The translations under genes and the position numbers were made by a program. A stretch of 53,383 bases of DNA, from positions 1-53,383 of the forward strand of contig CANMCY010000017.1 of the NCBI GenBank assembly GCA_947496375.1, written 5' to 3'. Below are positions 3,154 to 11,493 of the stretch, in pieces (position 1 is the first letter of the stretch; each line of letters begins with the position of its first letter). The notes beneath the pieces were generated by a model. It was not told the origin of the DNA and did no database searches. It saw nothing but the letters and a program-made list of their open reading frames with translations. Source of the stretch: Flavobacteriales bacterium (GTDB lineage: Bacteria > Bacteroidota > Bacteroidia > NS11-12g > UBA955).

Positions 3154-4566
3154 TTATTTGATGGATTCGTCCGGGTTGCCCACCATTTTTTCCGGTTTCA
3201 CCCACTCATCGAATTGCTCGTTGGTGAGCAGGCCCAGTTCAAGGGCAGCTTCGCGCAGGGTTTTATTTTCCTTGTGCGCTTTTTTGGCAATTTTGGCTGC
3301 ATTCTCATACCCGATGTGCGTGTTCAGGGCCGTAACAAGCATCAGACTTTGCTCTACCAGTTGCTGAATGCGGCTATGGTTAGGTTCAATGCCCTGTGCG
3401 CAGTGGGTGTCGAAGCTAAGGCATGCCTGGCCGAGTAGGCGGGCGCTTTGCAGCAGGTTGGCAGCGATTACGGGTTTGTATACATTCAGTTCAAAATGGC
3501 CCTGCGAGCCGGCAAAAGAGACAGTTACATCGTTACCCATAACCTGGGCACAAACCATGGTGAGGGCTTCCGGTTGTGTAGGATTAACCTTACCGGGCAT
3601 AATGCTGCTGCCGGGCTCATTTTCCGGTATGATGATTTCACCAATTCCGCTGCGCGGACCACTGCTGATTATACGAATATCGTTGGCAATTTTAAAACAG
3701 CTTACAGCAGCTCTTTTTAGGGCACCGTGCAATTCCACCATGGCGTCATGTGCAGCCAGGGCCTCAAATTTATTGGGTGCTGAAACGATAGGCAGGCCGG
3801 TTTCCTCCGCAATGAGTTTGGCTACCAGAGTAGCATATCCTTTTGGGGCATTAAGTCCGGTGCCCACCGCAGTTCCGCCAAGTGCAATTTCCGCAGCTGG
3901 GATTAAGGCACGATTGATGGCTGAAACACCGTTCTCCAGCTGTGTAACATATCCGCTAAACTCCTGACCCAGTGTGAGGGGAGTTGCATCCATAAAGTGT
4001 GTGCGACCAATTTTTACAATGTCTTTATAATCGCGTGACTTATGTTTTAAGGTGGTTTTCAATGCCTGAATACCCGGCAACGTGTAGTCTACCACTTGCT
4101 TAAATACAGCAATGCTCATGGCTGTAGGGAAGGTATCGTTACTGCTTTGGCTCTTATTTACATCGTCGTTGGGGTGCAATACCTTATCTTCATCTGTTAG
4201 CAAACCTCCGCTTAGCACATGTGCACGGTTGGCAATCACCTCGTTTACGTTCATGTTGCTTTGGGTGCCGCTGCCGGTCTGCCATATTACCAGCGGGAAC
4301 TCTGCGTCCAGTTTTCCTTCGATTATTTCATCACAAACCGTTACAATGAGGTTCTTCTTTTCTTCACTCAGCACACCCAGCTGATGATTGGCCATGGCTG
4401 CACATTTCTTAAGCACACCAAATGCGCGGATGATTTCTACGGGCATACTGCCTTCAGGCCCGATTTTAAAATTGTTGCGGCTACGTTCTGTCTGGGCACC
4501 CCAGTAGCGAGCTGCGGGCACTTTTACTTCACCCATGGTGTCGTGTTCAATACGAAATTCGCTCAT
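3154..4566 (-). CDS. fumC: Class II fumarate hydratase
   Basis: This 470-aa protein catalyses fumarate/malate interconversion in the TCA cycle as a soluble homotetramer. It has the class II pattern: [14 protein letters not shown] at the N-terminus, the GSGTQSNMN box, the [10 protein letters not shown] region and the superfamily signature [11 protein letters not shown] at about residue 316-326. The start at 4566 (MSEFRIEH) matches homologues, while a frame open to 4593 adds nine unlikely residues. A TAAATTCG element at 4582-4589 (minus strand) would place the promoter just upstream. The long AT-rich gap to the divergent histidine kinase gene follows. Confidence 0.97.
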
Positions 4567-4581
4567 TTGTAATCTTTGCCG

Positions 4582-4589
4582 CGAATTTA
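4582..4589 (-). promoter_or_regulatory. fumC: Putative -7 element of fumC (TAAATTCG)
   Basis: Read on the minus strand this is TAAATTCG, one base from the Bacteroidota -7 consensus TAnnTTTG. It ends 15 nt before the fumC ATG at 4566. I see no clear TTTG -33 partner. Confidence 0.4.
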
Positions 4590-4725
4590 GCATTTATACT
4601 TTGTTTAATGAAAACAGGTTTAATTCCAATTCTGAAAAATTAACTTCAATCCTCAATCCAAATAAAATTTTCAATAACAAAGTATAGTAATTACAATAAA
4701 TATCAATAAAAACAAGTAATATCCG

Positions 4726-4959: not shown

Positions 4960-4983
4960 TGACTAATGTCATGACAGTGATCA
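4960..4983 (+). promoter_or_regulatory. Tandem Crp-type operator boxes upstream of the kinase gene
   Basis: Two 12-bp boxes abut exactly. TGACTAATGTCA (4960-4971) is a perfect TGAC-N4-GTCA palindrome, and TGACAGTGATCA (4972-4983) has one arm mismatch. Their centres lie 41.5 and 29.5 bp before the -7 element at 5007. The same perfect palindrome recurs at 7454-7465. The likely binder is the Crp-fusion response regulator encoded just downstream, which is an inference from proximity and HTH type. Confidence 0.6.
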
Positions 4984-5006
4984 AAACAAATCCAATAAGT
5001 GCAGAA

Positions 5007-5014
5007 TATCTTTG
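5007..5014 (+). promoter_or_regulatory. -7 element of the histidine kinase operon (TATCTTTG)
   Basis: This is a consensus TAnnTTTG element 47 bp before the kinase ATG. The usual TTTG -33 element is missing at the expected distance, where the TGAC boxes sit upstream. This fits an activator-dependent promoter. Confidence 0.55.
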
Positions 5015-5061
5015 AACTGGCAAAATACACCATACGATTGTATGAAATAAAGAAGTAAAAT

Positions 5062-6396
5062 ATGAGAAAAAACGGAATTGACAATGGAATTATAACGAAA
5101 CTAAAACATGCAATTGGGCACTCATATGATACTGACAAGCTGGACAGTGAATCATGGAAAAGTTTATTGCTGTCTTCATTTCATTATGCATCAGAAGCCA
5201 TCATAATGGCTGATTATCAGGGTAAAGTGTATGTTGGAAATTCCCTAGCGGAGAATTTATTCGGTTATGATGCCAAAGAACTTGGATCAATGAAAGTGTC
5301 TCAGCTTTTCCAGTCGGCGACTGTCGGTGATGCTCCGTTTTCAATTCCCGACTTACTGCATTTTGAGGGGAAATCTATTGTTGGTTTGAGAAAGGGAAAT
5401 TTTGTATTTCCCATCAGTGTGAGAATGAAGAGTTTTAGCACGGCCACATCATTGTATATATTGTTTTTTGTAAATAGTCTGGAAAAACAATATATTAAGA
5501 ACAAAACCATTGAAAAGCGGAATACCCAAATCATAGAATTGAAACAGGCAATCAGTCATTTGAAAAACCAAAATGAACGCATGCTTCGAGAACGCACCCA
5601 ATTATTGCAGGAGTCTATTGAGGAATTGTCGAACACCAAAAAACAATTGCAACAATCTTTGAAAAAAGAGATCAATGCCCATGAGAAGTGTTCAAAGTTT
5701 GCTTATCTGTTGTCTCATGAATACAGAAATATATTAACCGGTATATTTACTTCATTAACACTTGTTCAAAAGTATGAAACACCCTCTTCGCAACTTGCTG
5801 ATAAACAAAGAGCAAGTATTATAAAAGCAAAAAACAGCATTCATCATTTAATTACCATTACAGATGAATTATTGCATTTAAATACAAATGTCAATCTGGA
5901 TTTTAAGCCAGAAATTTTTGAGGTTCCCTTAAATAAGTTACTGGAAGAAATTTGTAATGAGTGGAATGGTACAGAACAACAATGTTATAAAAACCCAATT
6001 CCAATAAAGTTGTCATCAATAGAATCTGTAGTTGCAGAAACCAATCCAGAGCTTTTAACCCAGATTCTCAACAATTTGATAAGCAACGCAATTAAGTATT
6101 CAGACGGAGAAGGAGAGGTGGTTATAGAGTGCAAAGACGAAAACACTGTCTATGCCATTTCTGTAAAAGACAATGGAAGAGGGATTCCGGGTGATGAGCT
6201 GCAAAAATTAACCAATGGATTTTACCGCGCGTCCAATACAAATGGAGTTGTGGGAAATGGGCTGGGTCTTTTTATTGTAAATCAATTTCTTGAACATCTT
6301 CATGGAGATTTTGACCTTGTAAGTGAACTTAATCAGGGAACATGTGCAACCATTAGAATACCAAAGAAATATGAAGAAAAAAGTATTATTAATTGA
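5062..6396 (+). CDS. Soluble PAS-domain sensor histidine kinase
   Basis: This 444-aa kinase has no membrane segment, so it senses something in the cytosol. Order: PAS domain (about residues 40-110, ADYQGKVYVGNSLAENLFGY), a Gln/Glu-rich coiled coil (about 125-205), a HisKA helix with phospho-acceptor H219 in LLSHEYRN, and a HATPase_c domain. The latter has its N box at N338/N342 (NNLISNAIKYS), G1 box DNGRGIPG (370-377) and G2 box GNGLGLFIV (from 398). No PAS cofactor residue is evident, so the signal is unknown. The gene overlaps the response regulator by 26 bp, which indicates translational coupling. The region is markedly AT-rich: I count 17 G/C in bases 5701-5760. Confidence 0.92.
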   Translation: MRKNGIDNGIITKLKHAIGHSYDTDKLDSESWKSLLLSSFHYASEAIIMADYQGKVYVGNSLAENLFGYDAKELGSMKVSQLFQSATVGDAPFSIPDLLHFEGKSIVGLRKGNFVFPISVRMKSFSTATSLYILFFVNSLEKQYIKNKTIEKRNTQIIELKQAISHLKNQNERMLRERTQLLQESIEELSNTKKQLQQSLKKEINAHEKCSKFAYLLSHEYRNILTGIFTSLTLVQKYETPSSQLADKQRASIIKAKNSIHHLITITDELLHLNTNVNLDFKPEIFEVPLNKLLEEICNEWNGTEQQCYKNPIPIKLSSIESVVAETNPELLTQILNNLISNAIKYSDGEGEVVIECKDENTVYAISVKDNGRGIPGDELQKLTNGFYRASNTNGVVGNGLGLFIVNQFLEHLHGDFDLVSELNQGTCATIRIPKKYEEKSIIN

Positions 6397-7429
6397 TGAC
6401 AGTCAGGATGTCAGAGAAAATGTAGCCGAAATCTTAACGCTTTCGGATTATGAGGTAATTACATCTGAAAACGGAAAAGATGGTGTGGAGGTAGCACAAA
6501 AAATTTTGCCTGACATCATCGTCTGTGATATCTCAATGCCGCTACTAGACGGATTTGGGGTAGTCCATTTGCTTGCACGTTCTCCCGAAACTGCCAAAAT
6601 TCCGATTATATTGCTTACTGCCAGAAATGACAGGGATAGTTTCAGAAAAGGAATGGAACTGGGAGCTGATGATTTTATTACCAAGCCATTTGAAGAAGCA
6701 GAATTATTGAGGGCTATAGAAGTACGGCTTAAAAAACACGATGAGAACGGAATTCACAGAAATGGCAGTGGAGATGGATTTCTTGCCCTGATGAATGATG
6801 GGAAATCACTGGAAAACTTTAGAGAAACTGCGGGTGATGGAACCATTTTTGAATTCCAGAAACGCGAATATGTGTACCGTGAAGGTGGGCAGCCTCGCTA
6901 TGTTTACTTCATAGAATCAGGCAAAGTGAAAACGGTTTTGCTTAGCAATGACGGTAAAGAGCTGATGACCGCTTTGTATGGGGAAGGCGATATATTCGGA
7001 CATATTGCAATGCTTGAAGAAGCTGAATATACCGAATCTGCAATTGCCGTTGAGCCTTTAAAGCTACATGCATTGAATAAAGCCGATTTTTTCTCATTGC
7101 TGGGTACACATCAGGGGGCCTCCGCTAAATTTATAAGAATTATGGCAGATCAGTTGGTGGAAACGGAAGATAAATTATTAAGATTGGCCTACGATTCTGT
7201 AAGAAAAAGGGTTGCAGAGGCCCTGGTTGATGTTTACCGAACCTACACTTTAAGTAATGGTAATAAGGAAATAGAAATTTCAAGGCAGGAACTCGCATCT
7301 TATGTGGGCACAGCAACAGAAACAGTCATTCGTACCCTTAGTGCATTCAAACAGGAAGGGTTAATTAATATTGTGCATAGTAATATCATTATTAAAGACT
7401 TGGCTGGACTGATTCGCATGAAGAATTAG
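6371..7429 (+). CDS. Response regulator fused to a Crp/Fnr-type transcription factor
   Basis: This 352-aa protein joins a receiver domain (residues 1-120: acidic pair in LLIDDSQD, phospho-acceptor D53 in IVCDISMP, LLTARND, switch Lys in ITKPFEE) to a cyclic-nucleotide-binding-fold domain (about 150-265) and a Crp-type winged HTH (about 275-345). The recognition helix carries E317 and R321 (TATETVIRTL), the spacing Crp and Fnr use to read the GA of their half-sites. I see no Fnr-type cysteine cluster. The start at 6371 gives the usual MKKKVLLIDD; earlier in-frame codons lie deep inside the kinase gene. The protein couples kinase signalling directly to a Crp-like DNA-binding module. The TGAC-N4-GTCA boxes at 4960 and 7454 are its likely operators (inference). 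Confidence 0.92.
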   Translation: MKKKVLLIDDSQDVRENVAEILTLSDYEVITSENGKDGVEVAQKILPDIIVCDISMPLLDGFGVVHLLARSPETAKIPIILLTARNDRDSFRKGMELGADDFITKPFEEAELLRAIEVRLKKHDENGIHRNGSGDGFLALMNDGKSLENFRETAGDGTIFEFQKREYVYREGGQPRYVYFIESGKVKTVLLSNDGKELMTALYGEGDIFGHIAMLEEAEYTESAIAVEPLKLHALNKADFFSLLGTHQGASAKFIRIMADQLVETEDKLLRLAYDSVRKRVAEALVDVYRTYTLSNGNKEIEISRQELASYVGTATETVIRTLSAFKQEGLINIVHSNIIIKDLAGLIRMKN

Positions 7430-7453
7430 AAATAAGCAGCTATTCGGTGGAAC

Positions 7454-7465
7454 TGACCAAAGTCA
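7454..7465 (+). promoter_or_regulatory. Crp-type operator box upstream of the 113-aa orphan gene
   Basis: TGACCAAAGTCA is a perfect TGAC-N4-GTCA palindrome, the same as the first box at 4960. Its centre lies 31.5 bp before a near-consensus -7 element TAATATTG at 7491-7498. In the kinase promoter the corresponding distance is 41.5 bp, so the two differ by one helical turn. Confidence 0.6.
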
Positions 7466-7521
7466 TTTCGCTGAATGATTAATGTGACATTAATATTGTT
7501 GCCGAATATATTAATTCTTAC

Positions 7522-7863
7522 ATGAACAACGTTGTTGAAAATTCGCAAACCGGTTTTTTTGATTGCACTGCTGATAGAGAATTTGAAAGACAATTCAATA
7601 CCATATTTCCATACTTGAGACTGTTTCTTAGAAAAGTAAGTTATCAAAAATTGGATTTGCCTACCAATCCCACACTCATATTTACCGAGAATTCTACTAT
7701 CAAAGAGTTGAGCGATAAATTATTGGTTGAGTATGGCAGGGAGGTTATATTCCAGCGTTACACCATCAATACCTGGCTTACGATAACTCAATCAATACAT
7801 TGGACATTGAAGAATCAGAATAATGAAGCAAGTAAACTATCTTGTCTCAATCGTGATTTTTAA
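7522..7863 (+). CDS. Conserved-looking small protein of unknown function, probable target of the Crp-fusion regulator
   Basis: This is a 113-aa soluble protein with no signal peptide or membrane helix. An N-terminal half with FERQFNTIFPYLRLFLRK is followed by a linker (NPTLIFTEN) and a second half, TIKELSDKLLVEYG, VIFQRYTINTWLT and HWTLKNQN. The layout (hydrophobic strand, helix TxxELxxxL, strand, W-T-L-x-x-Q-N end) resembles small Bacteroidota proteins I recall but cannot name. Its promoter carries the TGAC box at 7454, so it is probably controlled by the kinase/regulator pair just upstream. It lies 92 bp after the regulator stop and has its own -7-like element. No function is assigned. Confidence 0.7.
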   Translation: MNNVVENSQTGFFDCTADREFERQFNTIFPYLRLFLRKVSYQKLDLPTNPTLIFTENSTIKELSDKLLVEYGREVIFQRYTINTWLTITQSIHWTLKNQNNEASKLSCLNRDF

Positions 7864-7896: not shown

Positions 7897-10158
7897 ATGC
7901 CGAGTAAAAAATTGCTGGATGCCCTCAGTTATCATGCAGACGGACGTCCCGGGAAGATTGAGGTAGTAACGACCAAACCCACACAAACCCAGTTCGATTT
8001 AGCCCTGGCTTATAGCCCGGGGGTAGCCGAACCTTGCCTGAAAATTGCCGAAAATACTGAGGATGTATATAAATACACAGCCAAGGGAAATCTTGTAGCG
8101 GTTATCAGCAACGGTACGGCAGTGCTGGGGCTCGGTGATATCGGACCGGAGGCATCCAAGCCGGTTATGGAAGGTAAAGGGGTGTTGTTCAAAATATTTG
8201 CCGACATCGACGTTTTTGATATTGAGCTGAATTGTAAGGATGTAGACGAATTTGTACGCACCGTTAAAGCCATGGAGCCCACCTTTGGTGGAATTAATCT
8301 TGAAGATATAAAAGCCCCCGAGAGTTTTGAAATTGAAGAGCGGTTAAAAGCTGAACTGCAAATTCCCATCATGCATGATGATCAGCATGGAACGGCCATC
8401 ATCAGCGGTGCTGCGTTGCTCAATGCGTTGCGCATTGTAAATAAAGAAATTGGGAAAATAAAGATGGTGGTGAATGGTGCAGGTGCCAGTGCCATTGCCT
8501 GTTCTAAATTATTCGTGAGTCTGGGGGTGAATCCCGCCAACTTAACAATGCTGGACAGCAAAGGCGTTATTCATGCCGATAGAAACGACCTGGATAAATA
8601 CAAAAGCCAGTTTATTTCCAATTCTGCCGCCAGAACCCTCGAGGAAGCCATGAAAGGGGCCGATGTGTTTGTGGGTTTATCCAAGGGCAATATTCTTACT
8701 CCGGAAATGATTTTGGGGATGGCAGAAAAACCCATCGTCTTTGCCATGGCCAACCCTGACCCTGAAATTGATTATCAGCTGGCGGTGGATACCCGACCGG
8801 ATATCCTCATGGCCACCGGTAGAAGTGACTATCCCAATCAGGTGAACAATGTTTTGGGCTTCCCATTTATCTTCAGAGGTGCCCTGGATGTGCGCGCAAC
8901 CACCATCAACGAGGAAATGAAACTAGCCGCTGTGCGTGCCATCGCCGATCTGGCATTGGAGCCCGTACCGGAAGTAGTAATGATGGCATACAACGATTAT
9001 GATTTAGACTTTGGCCATCATTACATCATACCCAAACCCATGGATCCGCGTTTGCTTACTACGGTGGCCCCTGCGGTGGCTAAAGCTGCCATGGATAGTG
9101 GTGTTGCCCGTAATCCCATCACAGACTGGGATGCGTATAAAGCCGTGTTACGCAAAAGATTGGGTATAGACAATGATTTTGTGAACCGACTGGTACAACG
9201 CGCCAGGAAAAAACCCAAACGTGTGGTGTTTTCCGAGGCGGAAGACGTGAAAATACTCCGGGCTGCCCAAACCTGTCTCAATGAGGGAATTGCAACCCCC
9301 GTTTTATTAGGTAGACCCCACCAGATTCGTCAGGCAATGGAAGAACATAACATTGACCTTGGGCAGGTGACCATTCTGGACCCCTGGACAGAAGATGCGC
9401 TGTGTGAAGAATTTGGGGCGCTGCTCTATGAAAAACGAAAACGCAGCGGACTCACTCAGACCGAAGCTGTTAAAAATATGCGATACCGGAATTATTTCGG
9501 CGCCATGATGGTGGAAACAGGCAAATGCGATGCACTCATCAGCGGCTTAACCCGCAATTATCCCATAGCCCTGCGCCCTATGCTGGAGTGCATCCCTGTT
9601 GCGGGCACTAGCAGACGCATTGCAGGTATGCACATTGTGATGACCAAAAACGGCCCGCTGTTTCTCTCTGATACTACCGTAAATATTGATTATAAGCCCG
9701 AAGAACTGGTAGATCTGGTATTGAAAGTTCATGAAAGGGTGAGTAAATTCCAAATAGAACCCATCATTGCCCTGGTTACTTATAGCAATTTTGGCAGCAG
9801 CCGCGGACCGGCACCGGCTCAGATGAGAAAAGCCGTAGAAATCCTGCATGAATTGTATCCTCATATTCTTGTAGATGGAGAGATGCAGACCACTTATGCC
9901 ATGGACGGGGAAGCCCGAATCAGACAATACCCATTCAATAAGCTCGGCAACAAACCCGCGAATACCCTTATTTTCCCCGGTCTCAATAGCGGAAATGCTG
10001 CCTATCAGCTCATGCGGGGAATGGGAATGGTAGATATTATCGGTCCGGTGTTACTGGGCTTTGAAAAAAGTGTTCACGTACTCCACCACACCAGTAATGT
10101 GCGCGAAATTGTCAATATGGTTGCACTGGCGGTTTGCGAAGCCCAGGAAAAATCATGA
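7897..10158 (+). CDS. maeB: NADP-dependent malic enzyme with phosphotransacetylase-like C-domain
   Basis: This 753-aa MaeB-type protein oxidatively decarboxylates malate to pyruvate, supplying NADPH and linking the TCA cycle to gluconeogenic or anaplerotic flux. The malic enzyme half (about 1-425) shows [39 protein letters not shown] and the Rossmann segment [12 protein letters not shown]. The C-terminal third (about 430-753) is the PTA_PTB-like regulatory domain typical of MaeB, with [16 protein letters not shown] and [13 protein letters not shown]. Length is normal. The stop overlaps the GNAT gene start as ATGA. Confidence 0.96.
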
Positions 10159-11358: not shown

Positions 11359-11493
11359 CCGGGCAAATTGGCTGATATCCCTATATTTTTAGGTGATTTT
11401 ATATCACTTCGGGATTGATGTTTGTCATCAAATTACTTATCGTTATTTCAGTCAATTTAATCTGATTCGTGGGCAGTGGGAAAGTGTAGCATG

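Follow-up and report, generated by a model that had tools for sequence, protein, structure and literature searches.

A kinase and receiver-Crp cassette of a Flavobacteriales genome with TGAY-N4-RTCA boxes: a probable phosphorylation-gated, FixLJ/FixK-like activator of its own operon

In the FixLJ-FixK system of Alphaproteobacteria (PMC4999443), a PAS-type kinase and a receiver protein, FixJ, which acts on the fixK gene, are combined with a DNA-binding protein of the Crp/Fnr family that is devoid of iron-sulfur cysteines. The kinase, the receiver and the DNA-binding protein have counterparts in a locus found on a contig of a Flavobacteriales bacterium (assembly GCA_947496375.1, contig CANMCY010000017.1), whose 53,383 nucleotides were analysed as a whole and are referred to here as the window. 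In this case, however, the receiver and the Crp module form one protein, whose output domain is HTH_Crp_2 in place of the LuxR-type output of FixJ; phosphorylation and the Crp fold, both familiar as switches from the textbooks, are joined in one molecule. The locus also resembles FNR in its Crp fold, its E--xR recognition helix, the TGA-N6-TCA core of its presumed operator and the class-II-like position of the latter before the -7 element, and it shares the architecture of effector fold and HTH with regulators of the cAMP-CRP/GlxR type.

The locus is flanked by fumC (3154-4593, minus strand) on one side and by a maeB-type malic enzyme gene (7897-10158) on the other. Two overlapping forward-strand ORFs, read as an operon, encode a cytoplasmic histidine kinase of 444 amino acids (5062-6396) and a receiver-Crp response regulator of 352 amino acids (6371-7429); they are followed by a small gene (7522-7863, plus strand) whose 113-aa product belongs to a Bacteroidota-wide family. 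The initial annotation had described a soluble PAS kinase next to a receiver-Crp fusion. Pfam bears out the fusion, with Response_reg, cNMP_binding and HTH_Crp_2 in one protein adjoining the kinase; the receiver is placed at residues 5-117 (with Asp53), the Crp sensor fold at 161-246 and the HTH at 279-349 (with Glu317 and Arg321). As for the kinase, its cytoplasmic nature and its HATPase_c domain (E 1.2e-25) hold, while HisKA gives a weak, sub-threshold match and the PAS-like N-terminus is sub-threshold in the window protein (E 0.021) and clear, as PAS_9, in homologues. The H-box residue His219 is assigned as the phospho-acceptor by reading the sequence. The features of a two-component pair, i.e., phospho-acceptor His and Asp and the ATP-binding boxes, are thus present, and Asp53 and Lys105 of the receiver are invariant in 27 regulator orthologues, as are the recognition residues Glu317 and Arg321. 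Identity with the related genome G002 amounts to 95 % for fumC, 94 % for maeB, 88 % for the regulator, 50 % for the kinase and 54 % for the small protein; the last two diverge much faster than the regulator encoded between them.

Phosphorylation is the likely switch of this regulator, since it has neither the iron-sulfur cysteines of FNR nor an intact cyclic-nucleotide cassette. Its only cysteine is Cys52, sited in the receiver, so that there is no iron-sulfur cluster. Matches in the PDB show the effector fold and HTH of the cAMP-CRP/GlxR type, but the Glu and Arg of the cassette are replaced (GHIAMLEEAEYTESA versus GELSIFDPGPRTSSA in the alignment with the GlxR-type chain 3r6s) and a receiver is fused in front. 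By the features compared, the protein is to be placed outside FNR, CRP, FixK and FixJ and is predicted to work like FixLJ and FixK combined.

Two boxes precede the kinase operon. Box A, TGACTAATGTCA (4960-4971), is abutted by box B, TGACAGTGATCA (4972-4983), and both are followed by the -7 element TATCTTTG (5007-5014, plus strand), a TAnnTTTG motif which at this promoter is conserved in four species. Measured from the box centre to the first T of the -7 element, the distances are 41.5 bp for box A and 29.5 bp for box B. Box C, TGACCAAAGTCA (7454-7465), is centred 31.5 bp before TAATATTG (7491-7498, plus strand), the probable -7 element of the small gene, which has one mismatch to TAnnTTTG and reads TACTTTTG in G006. 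Boxes at these three places, with this geometry for boxes A and C, had been proposed in the initial annotation, as had the absence of a TTTG around -33 in the kinase promoter, and the sequence agrees on both points. Box B deviates by one mismatch from the proposed palindrome, TGAC-N4-GTCA, yet it is an exact match to TGAY-N4-RTCA, the wider code derived below, and sits exactly at the position that is the canonical proximal one in relatives. Another match to the wider code, TGATGTTTGTCA, is found at 11416-11427, 60 bp before an rseP-like gene (11476).

Frequency would by itself leave room for the view that the palindromes are chance matches. The window contains two exact copies of TGAC-N4-GTCA against 0.55 expected from shuffling, which is not beyond chance, and the 2.49-Mb genome contains 14, most of them within genes, against 25 for the reversed control. 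Counts in genomes of the same genus are likewise below the reversed control, and the genome-wide excess over background that had been set as a check for the palindrome is therefore not there. Nevertheless, conservation and position indicate that the boxes are real. The kinase-operon box and its spacing are kept in four species of the genus (41.5, 41.5, 41.5 and 40.5 bp): G002 and G004 have the box 41.5 bp and G006 has it 40.5 bp before the -7 element, and in G006 the operon behind the box includes an additional small ORF; the second check, boxes upstream of orthologous kinase genes, thus came out in favour of the proposal. The small-ORF box is found in five species of the genus, including G001, G002, G004 and G006, and in G006 it again lies 31.5 bp before TAnnTTTG. 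The promoter DNA surrounding the conserved boxes has diverged between species, so that fixed spacings of this kind, together with the phylum-wide evidence that follows, make a chance origin extremely improbable. Box B has no conserved counterpart elsewhere in the genus. G003 is without a receiver-Crp gene, and there fumC directly adjoins maeB: the kinase, the regulator, the small gene and both boxes are all missing, as one cassette.

The operator code was derived from 96 receiver-Crp loci, 80 of them from Bacteroidota genomes (including Pontibacter, Dyadobacter, Spirosoma, Chitinophaga and Mucilaginibacter) and 16 from the family and order of the window. All 4-mer inverted repeats with spacers of 0-12 were counted in the 124 kb of intergenic DNA of these loci, and the top two of the 3,328 patterns are TGAT-N4-ATCA (83 seen, 5.4 expected) and TGAC-N4-GTCA (38 seen, 1.33 expected). 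In the same DNA, the count of the FNR/FixK core TTGA-N6-TCAA stays close to expectation (10 seen, 5.0 expected); the outer T of the FixK box is not used here, and, in contrast to FNR, 78 % of the half-sites have A or C as their outer base and 13 % have T. Sites of the form TGAY-N4-RTCA are 22 times denser in intergenic DNA than in genes. As read from these sequences, the operator code is TGAY-N4-RTCA, distinct from the FNR/FixK box; the palindrome first proposed stands as an operator tied to this kind of regulator, within a code that is wider than had been thought. A box before the regulator's own operon, claimed at the outset for the window, turns out to be a general feature across Bacteroidota, since 36 of the 68 non-redundant receiver-Crp operons with upstream sequence have one, compared with 0-2 for eight control patterns. 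The window shares this feature, which as a mark of membership was itself derived from the relatives in the present analysis.

In the relatives, the promoters follow a strict grammar, although the counts over the 96 loci come from related loci and do not represent independent events. Box centres lie, with sharp peaks, 29.5 bp (25 cases) or 51.5 bp (40 cases) before TAnnTTTG, and where a promoter has two boxes these are separated by 22 bp in 22 cases and by 23 bp in five, with at most two cases for any other spacing. Such 22-bp tandems are another difference from FixLJ-FixK. The spacings of 41.5 and 31.5 bp in the genus of the window depart from the 29.5/51.5-bp rule. Since 29.5, 40.5-41.5 and 51.5 bp differ by steps of about one helical turn, the genus-specific kinase box would face roughly the same side of the helix. 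The genes behind the boxes, called mechanically as longest ORFs and named by our own reading of their sequences, fall into clusters of pair kinases (35), universal stress proteins (25), homologues of the small protein (15), ccoI-type ATPases (11), ccoN (8), the regulator itself (8), hemN (7), hsp20 (5) and hemA (4). More generally, the neighbourhoods of receiver-Crp genes are rich in ccoN, ccoI, ccoG, hemN and universal stress protein genes. In these relatives, TGAY-N4-RTCA is thus predicted to mark a large regulon for low oxygen and stress, which takes in cbb3 oxidase, ccoI, hemN, universal stress proteins and hsp20 and whose targets overlap with those of FixLJ-FixK (cco operon, hemA, hemN; PMC4999443).

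Which protein reads the boxes was addressed by a survey of the two architectures in 58 related genomes, 28 with the fusion and 30 without it. The 29.5-bp architecture gives 61 matches with the fusion (4 in the control) and 56 without it (0 in the control) and, being equally common without the fusion, indicates a code common to other Crp/Fnr proteins. Moreover, boxes of this architecture adjoin receiver-less Crp genes in G014, G022 and G024, and receiver-less Crp proteins probably share this proximal version of the box. Both observations would suit a separate, receiver-less Crp/Fnr regulator that reads the boxes and counts the kinase and receiver-Crp pair among its targets. We consider this explanation unlikely because the 51.5-bp architecture is associated with the fusion (36 matches and 4 in the control, versus 8 and 7 without it; rank test p = 0.002, which is only a guide as the genomes are related), because the boxes vanish along with the regulator in G003, and because the recognition residues of the fusion are invariant. 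In addition, the two genomes of the window's genus that lack the fusion are devoid of sites of either architecture, an indication that in this genus the fusion is the binder. As to the receiver-less proteins themselves, their genes at L043, L044 and G022:C59, all in genomes without the fusion, adjoin boxes of the 29.5-bp architecture, which suggests a shared code and autoregulation in their case as well.

The direction of the control can be read from the position of the boxes, which lie upstream of -7 elements that have no -33 element and hence suggest activation. Many autoregulated response regulators repress, and the distance from box to promoter varies among the kinase promoters of the relatives, so that negative feedback, with the regulator repressing its own operon and the small gene, has to be weighed as well. 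It is nonetheless quite improbable: the boxes are found upstream of the -7 element and not over it, their positions cluster at 29.5 and 51.5 bp, and a kinase promoter devoid of a -33 TTTG is what one expects of an activator-dependent promoter. Of the autoregulated, activator-dependent circuit that had been suggested initially, the box before the own operon and its activator-like upstream position are thus retained, while activation itself is a prediction.

The fusion would then probably be a phosphorylation-gated activator of the Crp/Fnr type, FixLJ/FixK-like, that responds to low oxygen or redox state and turns on its own operon. We infer phosphotransfer, DNA binding by this protein, activation and the signal alike. 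The cytoplasmic, weakly PAS-like kinase would sense a signal from within the cell, most likely low oxygen or the redox state, and phosphorylate Asp53 of the receiver, by which the Crp half of the same protein would be activated. A dimer of the regulator would bind TGAY-N4-RTCA upstream of TAnnTTTG promoters without a good -33 element and switch them on. Here the regulator would act on its own operon, as a positive feedback, on the gene of the 113-aa protein next to it and probably on a glycosyltransferase gene located elsewhere. The signal is proposed from the company of ccoN, ccoI, ccoG, hemN and universal stress protein genes in the relatives; of the relatives' regulon, at least cbb3 oxidase is absent from the genus of the window, where the signal may differ.

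The regulon of the own genome, searched by patterns only, appears to be small. Two sites have the canonical 29.5-bp spacing, namely box B and a site before a gene for a glycosyltransferase-4 (WecA-like; C1:97032), in which TGATATTAATCA lies 29.5 bp before TACTTTTG (gene at L363:9033-10118 of G000:C1). This gene, which is a likely further target, is preceded by a 21-bp tandem of boxes in G006, and it is interrupted in the two genomes without the regulator, where an assembly error is possible. It lies near carotenoid-type genes. A site before a secreted-protein gene on C8 was dropped as a target, its look-alike in G004 being located inside an ORF. Boxes are also found before a universal stress protein gene in G001 and before an hsp20 gene in G002, so membership of the regulon varies even within the genus. 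The description of the regulon as self-contained is therefore only roughly right: besides those of the locus, at least one further promoter has a box at canonical spacing, and the code is not private to the locus.

A literature search (receiver-Crp, Bacteroidetes, FNR box, cbb3) found no description of the regulator, the operator or the grammar. To our knowledge, low-oxygen control of respiration in free-living Bacteroidota is poorly worked out. The Crp/Fnr homologues of Flavobacteriales and Saprospiraceae genomes have been assigned to MalR (PMC8510549), and no such boxes are mentioned in the passages of that paper that were consulted. Taken across the phylum, the receiver-Crp proteins could form a Bacteroidota family of phosphorylation-gated Crp regulators with an operator grammar of its own, FixLJ and FixK in one protein, in charge of a phylum-wide low-oxygen regulon. 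This broader reading is tentative, and we hold it to be slightly less probable than its opposite. It takes in TGAY-N4-RTCA boxes in tandem, spaced by two helical turns and set at a fixed distance to the phylum-specific TAnnTTTG, a previously undescribed family of small proteins within the regulon, and the window as a minimal, cassette-like form. With operator and promoter geometry defined, the regulon can be predicted in many genomes and tested with one protein.

The system also points to a recurring small protein without an assigned function. The 96 loci (1,080 kb) contain 22 homologues of the 113-aa protein, 15 of which have a box, versus a single one in 80 control loci (240 kb), the latter being stretches of related genomes that were picked by box-like motifs and are not fully random. 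Searches of Pfam and NCBIfam gave no match to this protein, nor did a fold search of the PDB below E 0.5; the prediction is an alpha/beta fold with a mean pLDDT of 80. Members of the family adjoin universal stress protein, tryptophanase and receiver-Crp genes, and their alignment (A4) shows a conserved W-TL--QN ending.
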